Assembly (NCBI GenBank): GCA_017428495.1
Contig: JAFRQS010000011.1
Location: 1 to 64,000, forward strand
Origin: Bacilli bacterium
GTDB lineage: Bacteria > Bacillota_I > Bacilli_A > RF39 > UBA660
Length of the DNA stretch: 64,000 nucleotides
Direction of reading: 5' to 3'
Positions 854 through 64,000 of this stretch are shown here, in pieces. The notes beneath the pieces are model-generated. The model did not search any database and had not been told where the DNA came from. It saw only the letters and a program-made list of their open reading frames with translations. The position numbers and the translations under genes were made by a program. Within the stretch, counting starts at the first letter, position 1. Every line of letters begins with the position of its first letter.

Positions 854-1513
854 ATGATAAAAATTGTTGATGAGGTAGTAAAAGAACATGAGAATCTAAT
901 TTATAAGCTTGCTAGTAGTTTTAATCAATCATATAAAGAGGATTTATATCAAGTTGGTGTAATTGGTCTTATAGAAGCATATAATAATTATAATCCTAAG
1001 TATAATGTAAAATTTTCTACATATGCATATCCTTTTATATTAGGAGAAATGAAAAGGTTCATAAGAGAAAATAGAGGTATAAAAGTAAGTAGGGAAATAG
1101 TATATTTATCTAATAGATTAGATAAATTGATTGAATTATTATATCAAAAGCATAAAAGAATGCCTACAGTAGAAGAACTATCTTTAGAAACTGGTATTGA
1201 TTCATGGAAAATAGTTGAAGCAATAGGTATTAGAAATTGTATAAGAAGTATTGATGAACCAATTAATTATGAAGGTAAAATTATTACACTAGAAGATGTT
1301 ATACCAACCAATGATAGCTTTGAAAGTAATGTTGAAGTAGAAGATGTATTTAATTCATTAGAAGATGATGAAAAAATAATAGCGGTAGACAGATTTATAC
1401 ATGATAAATCGCAAAGTGAAGTAGCAAAGATAATGGGATATTCACAAGCAAAAGTATCACGTAAAGAGCAAAAAATAATTACTAAAATCAAAGAATACTA
1501 TAGAGCTAGTTAA
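854..1513 (+). CDS. sigF: RNA polymerase sigma-70 family factor, sporulation SigF/SigG type
   Basis: Sigma factor of the SigB/SigF/SigG group. Region 2 is clear (EDLYQVGVIGLIEAYNNY, then FSTYAYPFILGEMKRFIREN), as is the basic GIKVSRE stretch. Region 4 ends with a helix-turn-helix (QSEVAKIMGYSQAKVSRKEQKI). At about 219 aa it is slightly shorter than usual, mainly at the N-terminus. The position after dacF matches the Bacillus/Clostridium dacF-spoIIAA-spoIIAB-sigF order, but no anti-sigma or anti-anti-sigma gene is present. The start is uncertain: AGAAGGAG (846-853) abuts ATG 854, while ATT 863 has ideal spacing and TTG 830 has no Shine-Dalgarno sequence. The family is sure; the exact paralog (F or G) is inferred from context. 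Confidence 0.88.
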   Translation: MIKIVDEVVKEHENLIYKLASSFNQSYKEDLYQVGVIGLIEAYNNYNPKYNVKFSTYAYPFILGEMKRFIRENRGIKVSREIVYLSNRLDKLIELLYQKHKRMPTVEELSLETGIDSWKIVEAIGIRNCIRSIDEPINYEGKIITLEDVIPTNDSFESNVEVEDVFNSLEDDEKIIAVDRFIHDKSQSEVAKIMGYSQAKVSRKEQKIITKIKEYYRAS

Positions 1514-1530
1514 TACTAGTTCTTTTTTTA
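1503..1530 (+). terminator. Intrinsic terminator after the sigma gene
   Basis: Stem GAGCTAGT/ACTAGTTC (one G-U pair) with a 4-nt loop and a run of seven T. It overlaps the last codons of the sigma gene. Confidence 0.8.
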
Positions 1531-1567
1531 TACATATAATTATAGTATAATTATGGTAGGTGGTTAT

Positions 1568-2299
1568 ATGGAAAGATATAAAGCATTATTAGATATTTTG
1601 AATGAAAAGATTATGGTATTGAATGAAAGAGGTATTGATGTTACTGATTTATTAAGTAGATTAGAAATCATAACAAATGATGAAGAGGCTAGGAATTTAA
1701 TACCAGGATCAGTTAAATATAATATTTATTATGAAAATAAAGTAAGAGAATTATCCGTTTTAATTAATAGAATTGATAATATGACTAATGTTGAAACTCA
1801 TAATAAGAGAAATGAGTGCAATGTTGATTTTGAAGAATTGTTTAATAGGAAAGTAAAAAGCAATATAGCTGTAACTTGTATTACAAATGATGCTATTGTT
1901 ACTAGGTATGCAAATCCTGATGAAAAATATCATTTTAATTCTTTGGCACATATTTTATATGATTTGACAGGCAATGAGGAGTTTAAAGATAAAGTAATGT
2001 TTTTTAATAATGAATATAAAGATTATTGTATTTTTATTAGATATGTAGATTTTGAAGATTACACAGAGATAACTATTGATTTGCCATACATAATCACTAA
2101 AGGAATGATTGATGGTTTATCTAATGTATTTAATTTGTGGAAAAGTGCAAGAATTGATGAAGATAGTTTAGTTCAAGTATATGTAGTAGATGAAGAATTT
2201 AATAAGAAATATAATCCTAGTTTAGATGGTATTGAATTAAATGAACTAGATAAATTATTAGCATATTTAAAAATTAAAGAAGAAAGTAAAATCAAATAG
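1568..2299 (+). CDS. Hypothetical cytosolic protein (243 aa)
   Basis: Not recognised. It is acidic and Asn-rich, with no signal peptide or membrane segment. The N-terminal part (MERYKALLDILNEKI...) looks helical; the second half (about 75-240) has mixed strand/helix character. An upstream in-frame ATG at 1553 exists, but GGTGG at 1559-1563 lies between it and ATG 1568 and fits the latter as Shine-Dalgarno sequence. A TATAAT at 1546-1551 suggests its own promoter just after the sigma-gene terminator. The rpsP promoter follows directly. Confidence 0.7.
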   Translation: MERYKALLDILNEKIMVLNERGIDVTDLLSRLEIITNDEEARNLIPGSVKYNIYYENKVRELSVLINRIDNMTNVETHNKRNECNVDFEELFNRKVKSNIAVTCITNDAIVTRYANPDEKYHFNSLAHILYDLTGNEEFKDKVMFFNNEYKDYCIFIRYVDFEDYTEITIDLPYIITKGMIDGLSNVFNLWKSARIDEDSLVQVYVVDEEFNKKYNPSLDGIELNELDKLLAYLKIKEESKIK

Positions 2300-53947: not shown

Positions 53948-54009
53948 AAAATCCCCTCAATTTAGGCTTTATAATAACAAAAAAAGTAATGTAAGTCAAT
54001 TACATTACT
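53940..54009 (-). repeat. Terminator/promoter module, copy 1
   Basis: About 70 bp repeated at three sites. On the minus strand: hairpin AGTAATGTAA-TTGAC-TTACATTACT (53985-54009) followed by T7, ending paralog 2; -35 TTGACT (53994-53999) in the loop, 17-bp spacer, -10 TATTAT (53971-53976), then GAGGGGATTTT and the ATG of paralog 1. Confidence 0.85.
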
Positions 54010-56198
54010 TATCCTTTTCTTAATACTTTAGCATCTTTCTCTAATTCATATTTATCTATTTCTGATTTAATTTTTCTAATTAATGCCTCAGTATATTTTA
54101 ATGCCAGTTTATAATTTAATTTATAGTATGCCTCTTTATAATTGTTTCCTTTTAAGGTGCCATGATAATTTAACTCTCCTACATTAATAATGATTACATC
54201 TACTCCATTTTCTTCTAAAATTATATTTTTAACATTAGAAAAAACTCTAACAACTGCATCTATTTTAGTTTCAACTTTATTATGATTATAATTAACTTTT
54301 TTATTTTTAAAACTTAAAGATTTACAACATAATGAAGAATATATCAAATTTGCTAATTGCTTTTCATTAAATAGCAATTTGGAATTTTTATAATCTTTAA
54401 ATCTAAGCGTTTTTATATTAGAGCAATCAATGCATCCGGATTCACATTTTTCAAGTGATGAAGGTATATTAAAAATAACAGATGACCATCTTACATATGC
54501 ATAGCATCCAATTTCTTTTAAACCTTCATTTAAAATAGAGCTTTTTACATATTTTGTAGAACATAAATCACCTTGTATTACTTTTAAAGAATTTGGCATA
54601 ACTAATATTTTACTTTTTGCTTCTTCTCTTACTTTTTGCATATAATAAGTATCATAAACACTATAGGATTTATGTATCTCTTCAATACCTTCTGGCAATA
54701 AATAATAATCTTTGCTTATTTTTCTATCAAGAAAAAAGTATGAACCAAAAATGTTTTTAAATCTTACATATACATCTTTTAAAAATTTATAATAATTGGG
54801 TAAATCTGTGTAATTAATCACTTCTAATATAGTACTAAGTGGAACCATATCACAAAATACAAAATTTGCTTTTTTATTTTTTATTTCTTCAAAGCAAATA
54901 TTATCAGGTAATGAGTTAATATTTATTTTTCTATTTAATAATCTTAAAAAATTAAAGAATGAATCAAATGAAAGCAATAATCTAATTGCTTCTATACTAT
55001 GATGCTTATTATTTGCATAGTATTCATAGTAATCAATATCTTTTTTTAGATATTTTAAAAAAGCTAAATATGTTGATGATTTAAATGTATTATCATCTAA
55101 TCTAATTGCTTGTTCAAATAAGCTGTTTTTACCATCAGTTATTTTTAATTTCTTTTTATAAATAATATCTTCATATACTTTTCTTTCTATTTCATTTGGA
55201 TATACAAATAATCTTTTTTCTAACTCCCAATCATTATAATTATCAGCAATGTCAAATGTTAATATTCTAAATTTGGCAATATAAAATTTATACCAGTCTT
55301 CATACGTAACGAGATTTTTTCCAAACAGATCATAAAGCATCAATTCATTTTCTAATCCATCTAAATCATGTAATAATTTACATTTCATTAATCTAGTTTC
55401 ATCATAGTTTAAATTAGCAGCATTCTTGATTTCATTTGCTCTACTAATAATATGAGCTATATTTGGCCTATTAATATATAATTCTTTTTCCATTTCTGTT
55501 TCTAGTATTGCAATTATAGATATTTGTTTATATATATTATTATCAGTTAATTCATCTTCATTAAATATTCTATTTACATTAATAATATGTGATGCATATC
55601 TTATTGTTTTATCTCTTCTTCCTTCAATTGCTTTAGGGCTTACTCTATTATCACTGATGGATATATGTGTTAAATATGAATCAATTTCATTTCTTATAGA
55701 TGTTTTTTGAGATATTAGAATTTGTAACGTTACTTTTAAATTATCAATTTCTGATTTTAAAGTACTTCTATTTAAATGAGGTACTCTTCTACCTTTTTCA
55801 AGTTCAGAAAGAGCAATTAATCTTTCTATAACCTCATCTTCTATTTTAACTATTTCATCTAAATATATTTTTAATTTAGATATCATAATTTTATTATCTA
55901 AGAGTGATTGATTTTCAATATCATAAAAATCATCTTTCATTACTAATCTAAGAATAAGATCAATATACATCTTATTACTTTCTACTAAATTATCACATGA
56001 TATATCTTTAGTAGTTAATCTTTTTCTTTGTGATAATATTTTTAGATATTCTTCTTTATATCTATCAATTAAATCTAATTTATTAGGTTCATCAGCATAG
56101 TAATCTCTACCAGGTATTTGTATTAAATCAGCAATACTTATGATATCTAGTTTAGTTTCATTAAAGAACCATTTCTTAAATCTATCAAGTAACCTCAT
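54009..56198 (-). CDS. Large cytosolic LRR-type paralog 2 (unknown function)
   Basis: 729 aa, same plan as paralog 1: start MRLLDRFKKWFFNETKLDII, helical middle, C-terminal BspA/LRR_5-like repeats (LPEGIEEIHKSY, LVMPNSLKVIQG, SSILNEGLKEIG, FNIPSSLEKCESGCIDCSNIKTLRF). Residues about 35-245 match paralog 1 nearly base for base, while the rest has clearly diverged. No signal peptide. Preceded by module copy 2. Stop codon lies at the edge of the hairpin of copy 1. Confidence 0.75.
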   Translation of the reverse strand: MRLLDRFKKWFFNETKLDIISIADLIQIPGRDYYADEPNKLDLIDRYKEEYLKILSQRKRLTTKDISCDNLVESNKMYIDLILRLVMKDDFYDIENQSLLDNKIMISKLKIYLDEIVKIEDEVIERLIALSELEKGRRVPHLNRSTLKSEIDNLKVTLQILISQKTSIRNEIDSYLTHISISDNRVSPKAIEGRRDKTIRYASHIINVNRIFNEDELTDNNIYKQISIIAILETEMEKELYINRPNIAHIISRANEIKNAANLNYDETRLMKCKLLHDLDGLENELMLYDLFGKNLVTYEDWYKFYIAKFRILTFDIADNYNDWELEKRLFVYPNEIERKVYEDIIYKKKLKITDGKNSLFEQAIRLDDNTFKSSTYLAFLKYLKKDIDYYEYYANNKHHSIEAIRLLLSFDSFFNFLRLLNRKININSLPDNICFEEIKNKKANFVFCDMVPLSTILEVINYTDLPNYYKFLKDVYVRFKNIFGSYFFLDRKISKDYYLLPEGIEEIHKSYSVYDTYYMQKVREEAKSKILVMPNSLKVIQGDLCSTKYVKSSILNEGLKEIGCYAYVRWSSVIFNIPSSLEKCESGCIDCSNIKTLRFKDYKNSKLLFNEKQLANLIYSSLCCKSLSFKNKKVNYNHNKVETKIDAVVRVFSNVKNIILEENGVDVIIINVGELNYHGTLKGNNYKEAYYKLNYKLALKYTEALIRKIKSEIDKYELEKDAKVLRKG

Positions 56199-56260
56199 AA
56201 AATCCCCTCAATTTAGGCTTTATATTAACAAAAAAAGTAATGTAAGTCAATTACATTACT
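56191..56260 (-). repeat. Terminator/promoter module, copy 2
   Basis: Same arrangement as copy 1: hairpin 56236-56260 with T-run, TTGACT (56245-56250), 17-bp spacer, TAATAT (56222-56227), GAGGGGATTTT, ATG of paralog 2. The stop codon of paralog 3 lies inside the hairpin. Confidence 0.85.
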
Positions 56261-58412
56261 TTTTAACTTTTGATAATTCTTTTATTTGATTCAATGTTTC
56301 TGTTACGGCATTGGCTACTTCTACTACATCATTATGAATTTTTATTTTCCTTCTTATTTTGGCAATTATATTGTTTGCTTCTTGTTGATTCAAAACAGTC
56401 TTATCATATAAATGCCTTTTCCAAAACTTATCATAATAAGTATAACTCAAATCTTTCCTACAAATTCCAAAACTATTATTAAATCTAATTTCATCAAATA
56501 TTGGTGTTACTAGTATTTCATAAGTCCATTTTGAAGATATTATTGCACCTAGTGCCTCTTCACTTAAATCTGCTACATCACTTGGCTGTTCAATTTTAAT
56601 GCCTTCGAAGCCTTCTAATTTTCTTTCAACTTGTTTTTTATAAAACATCATTTTAATAAAAGCTGCGAACTCAGTTTCACTATTTAATAATTTTGAATTT
56701 TCATAATCTTCAAAATTAATAGTTAAAACTCTAGTAGTATCGAATGCCATTTCATCTATTTTTCTTACACTTGAAGGTATTGTTAAATAAGAACTATTTA
56801 GATGATAGAATGCATATTTACCAATTACTTCTAGCCCATCATTTAATACTACTTTAGGATAATCATCATTAAATAAATTACCACTAAGACTTATTAAGGT
56901 ACTAGGCATTAATAATACTTTCCATTTTGATTTTTTTCTTATTAACTCTTTTGTTTCTTCTAACATATCTGAAGTATTTATACTTTTAATTCCATATGGC
57001 AAACTATATGTACTATTTCTTGATTCCTCAATTCTATTCATGAGTTTATAAAGAATATATATTCCATATTTAACTTCATCTTCTTTTGCAGTTTCTTCAC
57101 TAATAATAGATAATAAAGATTCAAAAGGAACACAATCGTTCCATTCAATACCACTTTGATCTAATAACATCCTTTCATACATATTAGTATCTTTATATGA
57201 TTGTTGTGGATATAAAACATTGTTAGTAACCATATCTTTAAATCCATGTTCTTTATCAAAAGAACACAATAAATTTAACATATATTTATCAGTAAGTATC
57301 TTATCTAAATCAAATTCACCGTTTTCATCTTTAAAATATTCTCTAATAATTTTTATTGCATCTATTGCACTATCTTTAAAAGTTTTATCTATATAAATAT
57401 TTTCAGCTTTTAAAATTCTTTCTATTTTTTTGAAAATAATTTCTCTGTAGTAATGATAACCATATTCATCTTCATTAATTGGCGATTCTCTTAAATAATC
57501 TATGTCACATGTAAGAATATCAAATTTTATTCGGTATAAATTCAACATTTCTTCCTCTGTTACAACATTTTTTCCATATTCATAGAAAACAATATATTTT
57601 TGTTCTAAAAAACTTAATTCATGTAATAATTCGTTTTTATTCTCTTTTGTTTTTGCTTTTTGATCTAATTTTTTTAATCTTTCATGTAATAAATTAATCT
57701 CACTTTTATTTTTATATACATAAATTTCTAATTCTCTTTCTATTTCTGATATTCTCAAAACTTTAGATTCTATTTGGTATATAATATCAAATGCTTTATT
57801 TCCAATAAGAGTTGATGATATTTCGATTAATTTATCATATCTTTTATTTATTAAATCCACATCTACATCGGCTGTACCTATGTTTATTGTTGTTAAATAT
57901 GCATTTACTTCAATTTCTATAGCCCTTTTTTGACTCATAAATATAAATAAAGCATTAGTTAAATTATTTATTTCCTCATTAAGAGCCATTTTATTTCTGG
58001 AAGGTACTTTCTTTTTTTCTAATTCCTTTAATGATACTAGTCTTATAATAGCCTCAGTTTCTAACTTTTTTATTTCTTTCAAATATAGCTTTAGTTTTGT
58101 CATTTGAACTATTAATTCTTCAGGTGCAAGTTCAGAAAAATTATTTTCTTTAAGAACATGATAAAATAATAAATCTACATTCATAAGTATATCTTTCTGC
58201 AATTCATCAAGTGATAATTCTTTACTAGTTATTAATCTCTTTTCTAATAATATGCTTAAATATTTATCTTTATATCTATCAATTAAATCTAATGCATATT
58301 TATTATCTTTAAAATAATTTCTACCTGGTATCTGTATTAAATCAGCTATATTTATGATATCTACTTTTGTTTCATTAAAAAACCACTTTTTAAATTTATC
58401 AATTAACCTCAT
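56256..58412 (-). CDS. Large cytosolic LRR-type paralog 3 (unknown function)
   Basis: 718 aa. The first about 33 codons (MRLIDKFKKWFFNETKVDII...IQIPG) are nearly identical in DNA to paralog 1; the helical middle is diverged. The C-terminal repeats are the clearest BspA/LRR_5 match of the three: YPKVVLNDGLEVIGKYAFYH, then LTIPSSVRKIDEMAF. No signal peptide or membrane helix, unlike typical surface BspA proteins, so it is predicted cytosolic. Ends in a helical charged tail. Confidence 0.75.
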   Translation of the reverse strand: MRLIDKFKKWFFNETKVDIINIADLIQIPGRNYFKDNKYALDLIDRYKDKYLSILLEKRLITSKELSLDELQKDILMNVDLLFYHVLKENNFSELAPEELIVQMTKLKLYLKEIKKLETEAIIRLVSLKELEKKKVPSRNKMALNEEINNLTNALFIFMSQKRAIEIEVNAYLTTINIGTADVDVDLINKRYDKLIEISSTLIGNKAFDIIYQIESKVLRISEIERELEIYVYKNKSEINLLHERLKKLDQKAKTKENKNELLHELSFLEQKYIVFYEYGKNVVTEEEMLNLYRIKFDILTCDIDYLRESPINEDEYGYHYYREIIFKKIERILKAENIYIDKTFKDSAIDAIKIIREYFKDENGEFDLDKILTDKYMLNLLCSFDKEHGFKDMVTNNVLYPQQSYKDTNMYERMLLDQSGIEWNDCVPFESLLSIISEETAKEDEVKYGIYILYKLMNRIEESRNSTYSLPYGIKSINTSDMLEETKELIRKKSKWKVLLMPSTLISLSGNLFNDDYPKVVLNDGLEVIGKYAFYHLNSSYLTIPSSVRKIDEMAFDTTRVLTINFEDYENSKLLNSETEFAAFIKMMFYKKQVERKLEGFEGIKIEQPSDVADLSEEALGAIISSKWTYEILVTPIFDEIRFNNSFGICRKDLSYTYYDKFWKRHLYDKTVLNQQEANNIIAKIRRKIKIHNDVVEVANAVTETLNQIKELSKVKK

Positions 58413-61065: not shown

Positions 61066-61090
61066 AAAAAAAGAATGAAATAATTCATTC
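61066..61090 (-). terminator. Terminator of the radical SAM operon
   Basis: Minus-strand GAATGAA/TTCATTC stem, 4-nt loop, T7; overlaps the radical SAM stop codon. Confidence 0.85.
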
Positions 61091-62078
61091 ATAGATCACA
61101 TCCAATATCTTTATGATTTAAATCATGATATAAAGCATAAGTTAAACACCTTAAACCACCATGACATAGTTTACTATGTTCACATTCTTTACAATCATCT
61201 GGAATGTTCTTATTTCTTAATTCTTTTAATATTTTATTATTTATATATAAATCATACATATCATCTTTTAATAAATTCCCAATAAATATAGGCATTCTTC
61301 TACAAGGTACTAAATCACCATTTTCCATTACAGTTAGCAATGTATCTCCTGCTGTGCATCCATATGATATATCATTAGTCATTTGAAATTGTAATGCTCT
61401 ATTCATTGAGATAGTAGTAATACTATGTTTTTTATTAATTAATTTTTCTCTTTCAGAATACATAATTGTAAAGTATTCTCTAGTTTCATCAAAATTTAAT
61501 GCTAAATCTTTGTCTTTAGAATTACCAAGGGGAATATATCTATCACTCCAAACATTATTGACCTTATATTTTAATGCATATTTTACTACTTTAGGGAAAT
61601 CTTTATAATTCAATTTGTTTGCAGTAAATGATATAGAAGTAAATATATCATATTTTTTTAAATTTTTTATTCCCTCAGCAATTAATTTATAAGTGTTTTT
61701 TCCTCTTATATAATCATTAATTTTTTTACCCCCTTCTAAACTAACTTGTACATAATATGGATTATATGTTTTAATCTTTTTAGCAATTTCATCTGTTATT
61801 AATGTACCATTTGTAAGTATAGAAAAAGTAATTAAATCAGAATCTTTATTTATTAAATCTAATAATTTAAAAAGATGAGGGTTGCATAGAGGTTCTCCAC
61901 CAGTAATATTTATATGCCCCCTCATCTTTTTTCTTTTTAATAATTTTTTAAACTGATTATATATTTTTACTAATTTATCATAGTCTAATTGTATTGGTAT
62001 ATGATTTTCTTGGTAACAATGCAAACACTTTAAATTACATGCCTCTCCCAAATGCCATTGAAGAATAAATCTTACCAA
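61089..62078 (-). CDS. Radical SAM/SPASM-domain enzyme, candidate peptide modifier
   Basis: 329 aa from TTG 62078. Radical SAM Fe-S motif CNLKCLHC (Cys14, 18, 21) preceded by FILQWHLGEA; GGEP motif in INITGGEPLCNP; then SPASM region with CTAGDTLLTVMENGDLVPC, and CKECEHSKLC with further CGG/C residues for auxiliary Fe-S clusters. SPASM enzymes commonly modify Cys- or Gly-containing peptides. The gene overlaps the end of the DUF2207 gene by 7 bp, and the GGAGGTGGAGG that encodes the Gly tail is its only ribosome site. An upstream-extended Trp-rich N-terminus (to 62147) would lie wholly inside the Cys-tail codons and is rejected. Confidence 0.85.
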   Translation of the reverse strand: MVRFILQWHLGEACNLKCLHCYQENHIPIQLDYDKLVKIYNQFKKLLKRKKMRGHINITGGEPLCNPHLFKLLDLINKDSDLITFSILTNGTLITDEIAKKIKTYNPYYVQVSLEGGKKINDYIRGKNTYKLIAEGIKNLKKYDIFTSISFTANKLNYKDFPKVVKYALKYKVNNVWSDRYIPLGNSKDKDLALNFDETREYFTIMYSEREKLINKKHSITTISMNRALQFQMTNDISYGCTAGDTLLTVMENGDLVPCRRMPIFIGNLLKDDMYDLYINNKILKELRNKNIPDDCKECEHSKLCHGGLRCLTYALYHDLNHKDIGCDL

Positions 62079-64000
62079 GAACCTCCACCTCCACATGATG
62101 AACATCCACCACCACAGGAAGAGCATCCTCCTCCACATGATGAACATCCACCACCACTTGAACTACTACTGTATGAAGGTGTTGGATAATATACATGATT
62201 AGAAATACTAAATACGTCTGAACCACTACTATAATCAATTGTACCCATATCAACTTCTGGTATTGGAATATCTTCAAACTTCTTTATCCATTTTTTAGAA
62301 ACATTAAGTACATATGTATATGGCAATATGTTATAGAAATATTTTGGATCTTTTTCTACTAAAGCTTCTAAATCATCTTTTTCTACTCTTACTAAAAAAT
62401 CTCTAAATCCAAAAACTCTAGCTCTAATTATTTCACCATATTCAGTTTTTCTTTTCATTATAAATGCAAAGAATATATCAACAAATATACATCCAAAAGA
62501 TACATAATACATAAAACTAAACATTGGATTTAAATCTTCAACATATCTATATGCAACCATACTTAGTATTAATGAAATGAAACTTGCAAGTATAGCAAAT
62601 TTTATTTTAGATGACGCAACTTTATCTTTAATTTTATATTTTAACTCATCTTCAACACTCTTTTTAACTTTACTAAATACTGTATAAAAAGTTTTATGCT
62701 TACTCAAAATAACATTACTTTCATTCTCAAATAGTTTAGAATATATTTCATCCTCAATTTCACTTAAAGGTTCTAATTTTGCTCTTTCAGTATTATAAAT
62801 CTCAAGTTGCTTATAATATTCACTATTTATATGTTCATACTTATGTTTAATTATATCTTCAATTTCTTTTTCACTTAAACTATCTACATCATAACCTTCA
62901 TTAGTTAATAGATCTTTTATCTTTTTTGTACTTCTAATTTCATGCAATCTTTCATCATTATTATCACTAATTATTTTTATGTAGCCTTTGTTTACTAAAG
63001 AATCTCTAACTTTTAAAAATTTATCTATATTAGCATTAATTTTTTTGGTATCATTTTTTCTAAATAAATACTTCATCATCGTATTTTCTTCAGAATTCAA
63101 AGTATCATCAGATTTTTTTAATCTTTTTACTTCAATTTCACGCTTTTTTATTTTTCCAAAGATATTTTCATAATTTTTAATTTTAGGTATCTCCATAAAA
63201 TTAATTATTTCAATTTCTTTATCATCATTTTCATTTATTTTTATATAACCTTTAGCTGCTAATGATATCAATAATGAAATGGTTAATTTCTTATAATTTC
63301 TATTACCAAATATATATCCTATTTCAGCAGAATTTAAATTTTCAGGTGGATAAAATTCTACAGTTCTACTTCTTTTCTCATAATCTTTTCCATATTTATC
63401 CCAAATTAAATATACCCATACTGTAATGCCAATAACTGCAAGTATAATTGCAAGAGAACCATATCCATAATTATTAGAACCTCCAACAAAATATCCTTCA
63501 GGAAATTCAATATCAACTGTTAAAGATTTATATAACGGATAATCATCTGACAAACTTGCTATTATCTTATTTCCACTAACTGTATAATTAATAAATTTAT
63601 TAATATTATCTTTTCTATATTTATCTGCAAAGAAATTAATTGTTTCGGTTTCTATTCCTTTAGGTAAATGTATTTCTAAACTTGCATTTGAAATTCTTGT
63701 ACCCCAATAATCACCAAAAGCATGAAATATAAATTCATCAAATCCTTTAAATGGATCTTTTCCCATATTATATGTATATTTTATTATATATTCTTTATCA
63801 CCAGTAGGTAATGTTATATTTGGACTACCTATTTTAATCCTTGGTTTACTTTTTACTTTATCTACTGAATATTGTTCATCAACTGCTATATAATTAGTTA
63901 AAATTGATTTTCTTTTTATTGTTTTACCATCTTTTCCAGTATAGTTTAACCATTCAGGAGTAAACTTATATATTCCATGATGTTTACTTTCATACCAATT
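62072..64000 (-). CDS. DUF2207-type membrane protein with Cys/Gly-repeat tail, 5' end outside the window
   Basis: 642 residues visible; the frame stays open to the right edge (reading NWYESKHHGIYKFTPEW), so the signal peptide lies beyond it. Outer DUF2207-like domain (YIIKYTYNMGKDPFKGFDEF...FGDYWGTRI), membrane segment YGSLAIILAVIGITVWVYLIW, a long charged cytosolic part, a membrane hairpin (FAILASFISLILSMV and FMYYVSFGCIFVDIFFAF), and a cytosolic tail ending SSSS then (GGGCSSC)x3-GGGGSW. DUF2207 proteins often end in a Gly-rich tail with terminal Trp, but here each unit carries two Cys. Function of the family is unknown. Confidence 0.85.
   Translation of the reverse strand, partial: NWYESKHHGIYKFTPEWLNYTGKDGKTIKRKSILTNYIAVDEQYSVDKVKSKPRIKIGSPNITLPTGDKEYIIKYTYNMGKDPFKGFDEFIFHAFGDYWGTRISNASLEIHLPKGIETETINFFADKYRKDNINKFINYTVSGNKIIASLSDDYPLYKSLTVDIEFPEGYFVGGSNNYGYGSLAIILAVIGITVWVYLIWDKYGKDYEKRSRTVEFYPPENLNSAEIGYIFGNRNYKKLTISLLISLAAKGYIKINENDDKEIEIINFMEIPKIKNYENIFGKIKKREIEVKRLKKSDDTLNSEENTMMKYLFRKNDTKKINANIDKFLKVRDSLVNKGYIKIISDNNDERLHEIRSTKKIKDLLTNEGYDVDSLSEKEIEDIIKHKYEHINSEYYKQLEIYNTERAKLEPLSEIEDEIYSKLFENESNVILSKHKTFYTVFSKVKKSVEDELKYKIKDKVASSKIKFAILASFISLILSMVAYRYVEDLNPMFSFMYYVSFGCIFVDIFFAFIMKRKTEYGEIIRARVFGFRDFLVRVEKDDLEALVEKDPKYFYNILPYTYVLNVSKKWIKKFEDIPIPEVDMGTIDYSSGSDVFSISNHVYYPTPSYSSSSSGGGCSSCGGGCSSCGGGCSSCGGGGSW
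62093..62155 (-). repeat. Three 21-bp units encoding the GGGCSSC tail repeats
   Basis: Each unit encodes Gly-Gly-Gly-Cys-Ser-Ser-Cys. Units at 62135-62155 and 62093-62113 are identical in DNA; the middle one (62114-62134) uses different synonymous codons, so the protein repeat looks preserved by selection and not only by recent duplication. Confidence 0.9.

Follow-up and report, generated by a model that had tools for sequence, protein, structure and literature searches.

Two overlapping genes in the 64,000-nucleotide stretch of DNA analysed here (the window), part of the 1.2-Mb bin of a gut bacterium, encode a radical SAM/SPASM enzyme and a DUF2207 membrane protein that ends in a tail of glycine, serine and cysteine. 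Sequence comparison suggests that the two genes likely constitute a self-contained substrate–enzyme unit: the enzyme would modify the cytosolic cysteine tail of the DUF2207 protein, which acts as its carrier. This appears to be the best explanation for the consistent pairing of tail and enzyme, the conservation of the tail at the protein level, the fact that one clade of enzymes serves two homologous carriers, and the kinship of these enzymes with others that are associated with Cys–Gly precursors.

An overlapping gene pair

Both genes lie on the reverse strand. The enzyme gene (61089–62078; 329 aa) starts with TTG at 62076–62078 and stops at 61089–61091; its homologues are 42–78% identical and there, too, the genes overlap. 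The carrier gene (62072–64000) runs past the window to approximately position 64240 of the contig; its N-terminus is cut by the window, and read to its end the ORF encodes about 722 aa. The proposed substrate region is the carrier's tail (62075–62155, reverse strand), which reads (GGGCSSC)x3-GGGGSW, contains six cysteines and has its repeats at 62093–62113, 62114–62134 and 62135–62155. A pattern search of the whole genome found the DNA pattern of these repeats to be unique. The earlier note had described this tail on a DUF2207-type protein, overlapping a radical SAM/SPASM gene by 7 bp, and both descriptions hold: the tail reads exactly so, the carrier exceeds the cut-offs for PF20990 (112.3 bits, cut-off 33) and PF09972 (41.6 bits, cut-off 24.4), and the enzyme matches PF04055 (88.1 bits) and PF13186 (29 bits). 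A profile search returned no TIGR04222 match in the window carrier.

The overlap itself (62072–62078, reverse strand) is TTGGTAA, made up of the Trp codon and stop of the carrier together with the start codon of the enzyme; in homologues the junction is kept as TTGGTAA, ATGGTAA or ATGGTAG. The glycine codons of GGAGGTGGAGGT (62081–62092, reverse strand) may double as the Shine-Dalgarno sequence of the enzyme gene that follows. An ATG at 62147, an upstream start that ORF callers may prefer, was rejected: it lies in another frame, within the tail, and homologues allow TTG or ATG overlapping the terminal SW and stop. The linker that precedes the tail, SISNHVYYPTPSYSSSSS (62156–62209, reverse strand), is a possible recognition element. 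A Y-x-P-x-P motif is found in this linker in most paired DUF2207 proteins and is absent from the unpaired tails that were read; no RRE or other recognition domain was seen in the carrier–enzyme pair.

Outside the window, upstream of the carrier, are what we take (by eye, from the sequence) to be a LemA-like gene followed by a glyA-like one. The conserved part of the locus consists of the two genes only; flanking genes vary from locus to locus. Separately, the reverse strand at 54009–58412 carries tandem paralogues of 729 and 718 aa with the common N-terminus MRL(L/I)D(R/K)FKKWFFNET, and beyond the window, at about 71.8–74.3 kb of contig C3 (L004 11766–14283), there are three tandem paralogues of ∼220 aa that by eye are HD-phosphohydrolase-like.

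Conservation and topology of the tail

The terminal unit GGCSSCGGGGSW is invariant in nine homologues, with synonymous changes only. The last 12 residues are identical in all nine intact-tailed DUF2207 pairs: in 11 of the 12 codons the third position is variable, no first or second position changes, and pairwise comparison gives 195 synonymous and 0 nonsynonymous differences. Identity of 12 residues in nine pairs, with third codon positions alone varying, argues that the Cys tail is not a product of chance; judged from these codons, purifying selection acts on it at the level of the protein. The number of CSSC units varies: there is one in G210 and there are three in the window.

The carrier has four hydrophobic segments. 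Positive flanks are found at the N-terminus, following TM2, preceding TM3 and following TM4. Since the fold model of the DUF2207 protein was too poor for use (pLDDT 58), topology was based on hydropathy and charge counts. The predicted arrangement is N-in, four TM, C-in, placing the tail in the cytosol – the compartment in which radical SAM enzymes work – and agrees with the location proposed in the earlier note.

Tail cysteines and enzyme occur together

Among 193 genomes from the family to which the window genome belongs, 174 have DUF2207_C and five have the Cys-tailed form. The enzyme occurs in exactly those genomes (5/5, against 0/188 of the others; Fisher p about 5e-10 by genome and 5e-15 by gene, kinship not being corrected for). 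The underlying tail pattern, GGGC..C, was detected in six of the 193 genomes: in the five DUF2207 proteins and in a collagen-like GPT protein (G015/L046), which is not a carrier. An independent search for the enzyme (E <= 1e-30) recovered the five Cys-tail genomes, each at E <= 1.1e-130, and two further genomes at 1e-34 to 1e-37, where the match is a true ACGX enzyme in one case and a protein nearest to ACGX in the second.

The association also holds gene by gene. Tail cysteines are present in all 11 DUF2207 or TIGR04222 carriers that have a readable tail and stand beside an enzyme of the paired clade (only 11 such pairs, mostly from metagenome bins and many of them related), as opposed to 0/92 unpaired carriers. 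The unpaired tails come from 90 DUF2207 loci, of which two are truncated, and from four paralogues in paired genomes; there is no cysteine in the last 40 residues of any of the 92, and none of those loci contains the enzyme. Cys-free paralogues in the paired genomes G000, G064, G197 and G210 lie behind LemA-like genes and are without the enzyme. The tail from G107 (L103) falls under the glycine threshold of our script, yet ends SGCSSCGGGCSSCGGGGSW and was counted as Cys-tailed. G001 and G003, which belong to the same genus, have neither Cys tail nor enzyme; tail and enzyme thus come and go together. These counts are the co-occurrence check that the earlier note had proposed, and they bear it out: Cys-free DUF2207 proteins go without the enzyme, and no Cys-tailed DUF2207 protein lacking an adjacent radical SAM gene was seen in the sampled genomes.

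Named relatives with enzyme homologues are uncultured Bacilli and Bacillota bins. At 71–78% identity, homologues occur in five other named bins, each behind a DUF2207 gene, with a Cys-rich tail in four. In L037 the enzyme is intact (1154–2070, forward strand), the DUF2207 frame is broken, and GCSSCGGGGSW is readable in another frame. The L037 tail is down to one unit, through decay of the pair or a collapse in assembly; this bin carries the label Blautia.

No further pair was found in the phylum sample, and none of the inspected weak radical SAM matches in relatives adjoins a Cys-tailed DUF2207 gene. Viral contigs yielded no relative; on plasmids the radical SAM proteins were all distant, with about 27% identity in the best rows. 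Several candidates were set aside. L091 matched the tail pattern by chance. A RidA-like protein (L090 1473–1982, reverse strand; G302:C22) matched it through an independent tail of Cys and Gly that may bind metal, but is not a carrier; no radical SAM gene lies near it in the 3 kb read. Enzyme relatives in L121 and L122 (G827 and G865) fall outside the paired clade, are without the GGLxC motif and adjoin an amidohydrolase-like gene; in about 1.5 kb on each side no Cys tail can be seen. They (L121 1450–2496, forward strand; L122 1498–2520, reverse strand) represent a related radical SAM subfamily found beside an amidohydrolase/GNAT-like gene, and in L121 beside a creatininase-like gene too.

The enzyme and its nearest relatives

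The radical SAM motif CxxxCxxC (C14, C18 and C21) is invariant, as are seven further cysteines of the SPASM region (C241, C259, C296, C299, C305, C311 and C327). The SPASM spacing is atypical: CX2CX5CX5C is found instead of CX2CX5CX3C, and CxGGLxC for CxGGC. The CxGGLxC motif is diagnostic of paired enzymes, being present in 11/11 and not seen in the 28 other rows.

The top profile match is to ACGX (TIGR04340, 143.2 bits, cut-off 400), followed by SbtM (TIGR04082, 139.9 bits, cut-off 350), where the match covers profile positions 199–497 only and about 198 N-terminal positions are missing. The PapB profile scores lower (95 bits), and WgkB and DynA are among the weaker matches. Assignment to ACGX was rejected because the score is far under the cut-off and the adjacent gene encodes a 722-aa DUF2207 protein rather than a short ACG-repeat precursor; assignment to SbtM was rejected because the score is again far too low and the match is not full-length. 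By profile, then, ACGX and SbtM are the nearest families and the enzyme belongs to neither. In a phylogenetic tree, which contains no SbtM representatives, all paired enzymes group in a single clade (100/98), subdivided according to the type of carrier, and at 98/97 this clade and two more distant relatives are joined by the ACGX enzyme. A structure model of the enzyme (pLDDT 78) resembles SkfB, SuiB, anSME and PqqE, with SkfB the best match.

A true ACGX enzyme is found in G011, a genome of the same family (550 bits against TIGR04340; L006 1477–2541, reverse strand), with a precursor bearing ACGTACGA repeats next door; the G011 precursor in L107 (4104–4331, reverse strand) carries TACGTACGA repeats immediately upstream of the TIGR04340 enzyme. 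Elsewhere, a Cys/Gly-rich peptide in a 91-aa frame, IACVSCGATGCNIVECVSCGCSGGCNP, lies downstream of two radical SAM genes (L108 3021–3293, reverse strand; G101:C17) and is a candidate RiPP precursor.

A second carrier

In CTSoil_075 (L040) and G757 (L120) the enzyme's partner is a TIGR04222 protein, not DUF2207. The L040 enzyme is 42% identical to that of the window and the G757 enzyme matches at E 4e-130; the L040 partner scores 66.6 bits against TIGR04222 (cut-off 43) and the G757 partner is also over the cut-off. Their tails are GGGCSGCGGCGGGN and GGCSGGGGCGGGCGGCGGGD, and here also the genes overlap. Within the class of G757, TIGR04222 is over cut-off in 4 of 250 genomes: the enzyme stands beside both Cys-tailed proteins, and the homologues in G716 and G705 lack both the Cys tail and this enzyme. 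TIGR04222 is a homologue of DUF2207_C (E 9e-5; 97% probability). Glycine and cysteine are common to all partner tails; the C-terminal Trp is absent from the TIGR04222 tails, which end in N or D. TIGR04222 tails have been placed in the periplasm (PMC12452194), and the TIGR04222 proteins found here have an additional hydrophobic segment before the tail; the prediction of a cytosolic tail applies to DUF2207.

Proposed mechanism and alternatives

We propose that carrier and enzyme are made together by translational coupling, and that DUF2207 serves as a membrane carrier presenting its Gly/Ser/Cys tail to the cytosol. There the enzyme would act on the tail – we infer the tail as substrate and its cysteines as the site – by means of 5′-deoxyadenosyl radical chemistry, leaving the cysteines cross-linked or oxidised. 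The modified tail would probably, if we may speculate, serve as a membrane-tethered metal or redox site.

As to the product, a thioether to a neighbouring Gly or Ser is a realistic possibility. SbtM converts Cys to thiooxazole with the loss of four hydrogens (PMC11002830), and by analogy a thiooxazole-like four-electron oxidation of the tail may be entertained, rather tentatively; some other chemistry seems unlikely. In the TIGR04222 tails the cysteines are irregularly spaced, which speaks slightly more for a local modification of each one than for cross-links of fixed distance. It is conceivable, if doubtful, that the cysteines become thiooxazole-type metal ligands without oxygen, such that radical SAM enzymes in some bacteria and MNIO enzymes in others, with their unrelated chemistries, converge on one kind of metal-binding tail within a single homologous family of membrane proteins.

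Modification need not be invoked if the Cys tail, left bare, were itself a ligand for metal or an Fe-S cluster: it might then anchor the enzyme, or supply it with iron, sulfur or electrons, the reaction of the enzyme being directed at a different substrate. Cys/Gly tails are indeed seen on unrelated proteins that have no such enzyme, for example on the RidA-like protein of L090 (GGCSSCGGGCDSGCGGC). We nonetheless regard this as improbable: no other conserved gene stands by the pair to provide a substrate, the nearest relatives of the enzyme act on Cys-containing precursors or adjoin Cys–Gly precursors (SbtM: PMC11002830), and related tails have been proposed as substrates of the unrelated MNIO enzymes (PMC12452194).

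That the target is the C-terminal Trp, or the Ser or Gly of the tail, is suggested by the invariance of GGGGSW across DUF2207 tails and by the existence of Trp-using SPASM enzymes (WgkB and DynA), but is very improbable given that SW ends occur also on the Cys-free, unpaired paralogues L098, L100 and L105, that the TIGR04222 partners end without Trp, and that cysteine is what separates paired from unpaired tails. Least credible of all is an accident of operon history without functional link: although the pair is found in few genomes, many of them related, gene order and overlap are constant across differing neighbourhoods, presence is patchy and joint (G001 and G003 have neither gene), a second carrier type occurs in another class, and the association across genomes is strong (Fisher p about 5e-10, kinship not being corrected for).

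Relation to known systems

Modification of the tail cysteines by the enzyme would make the pair work as radical SAM-modified peptide systems do, except that a full-size membrane protein takes the role of the short precursor; unlike in radical SAM-modified RiPPs, the candidate substrate is the C-terminus of such a protein and not a short leader-bearing peptide. ACGX, the best profile match and close in the tree, has a precursor with ACG repeats, but that precursor is a short peptide and CxGC is found where the paired clade has CxGGLxC. SbtM, the second-best match, also acts on Cys, but on a precursor peptide rather than the tail of a membrane protein. The ranthipeptide and sactipeptide maturases PapB, CteB and SkfB are likewise SPASM enzymes of Cys-containing substrates; these are short free peptides with leaders, and the profile scores are lower. 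The anaerobic sulfatase-maturating enzyme (anSME), a SPASM enzyme whose structure is close to the enzyme model, does modify a protein and not a small peptide, converting a single Cys or Ser of sulfatases to formylglycine, but its substrate and motif differ from those of the window pair.

If our proposal holds, the window pair would extend to a protein tail what has so far been known mainly from small peptides. The closest published idea is that of MNIO (DUF692, PF05114) enzymes, for which TIGR04222 Cys tails are the proposed substrates (PMC12452194), a precedent that the earlier note does not mention. In both cases a membrane protein with a C-terminal Gly/Ser/Cys tail adjoins a metalloenzyme proposed to modify it, the carriers are homologous, and TIGR04222 itself is the enzyme's partner in L040 and L120. 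However, the window enzyme is radical SAM/SPASM and not MNIO, and the tail, periplasmic in that work, is predicted to be cytosolic in DUF2207. PF05114 is absent from the window genome (control genomes were positive). In the text of PMC12452194 radical SAM appears in the references only, and in the open-access literature we found no paper linking DUF2207 or ACGX to radical SAM and none on a G011-type ACGX system.

The sole physiological lead that may bear on the DUF2207 pair is a streptococcal DUF2207 mutant that is sensitive to acid and peroxide (PMC10457818). If the proposal is correct, full-size membrane proteins would join the substrates of peptide-modifying radical SAM enzymes, the Cys-tailed subset of DUF2207 and TIGR04222 proteins would acquire a testable role, and the pair would be a counterpart, independent of oxygen, to the modification proposed for MNIO enzymes on related tails.
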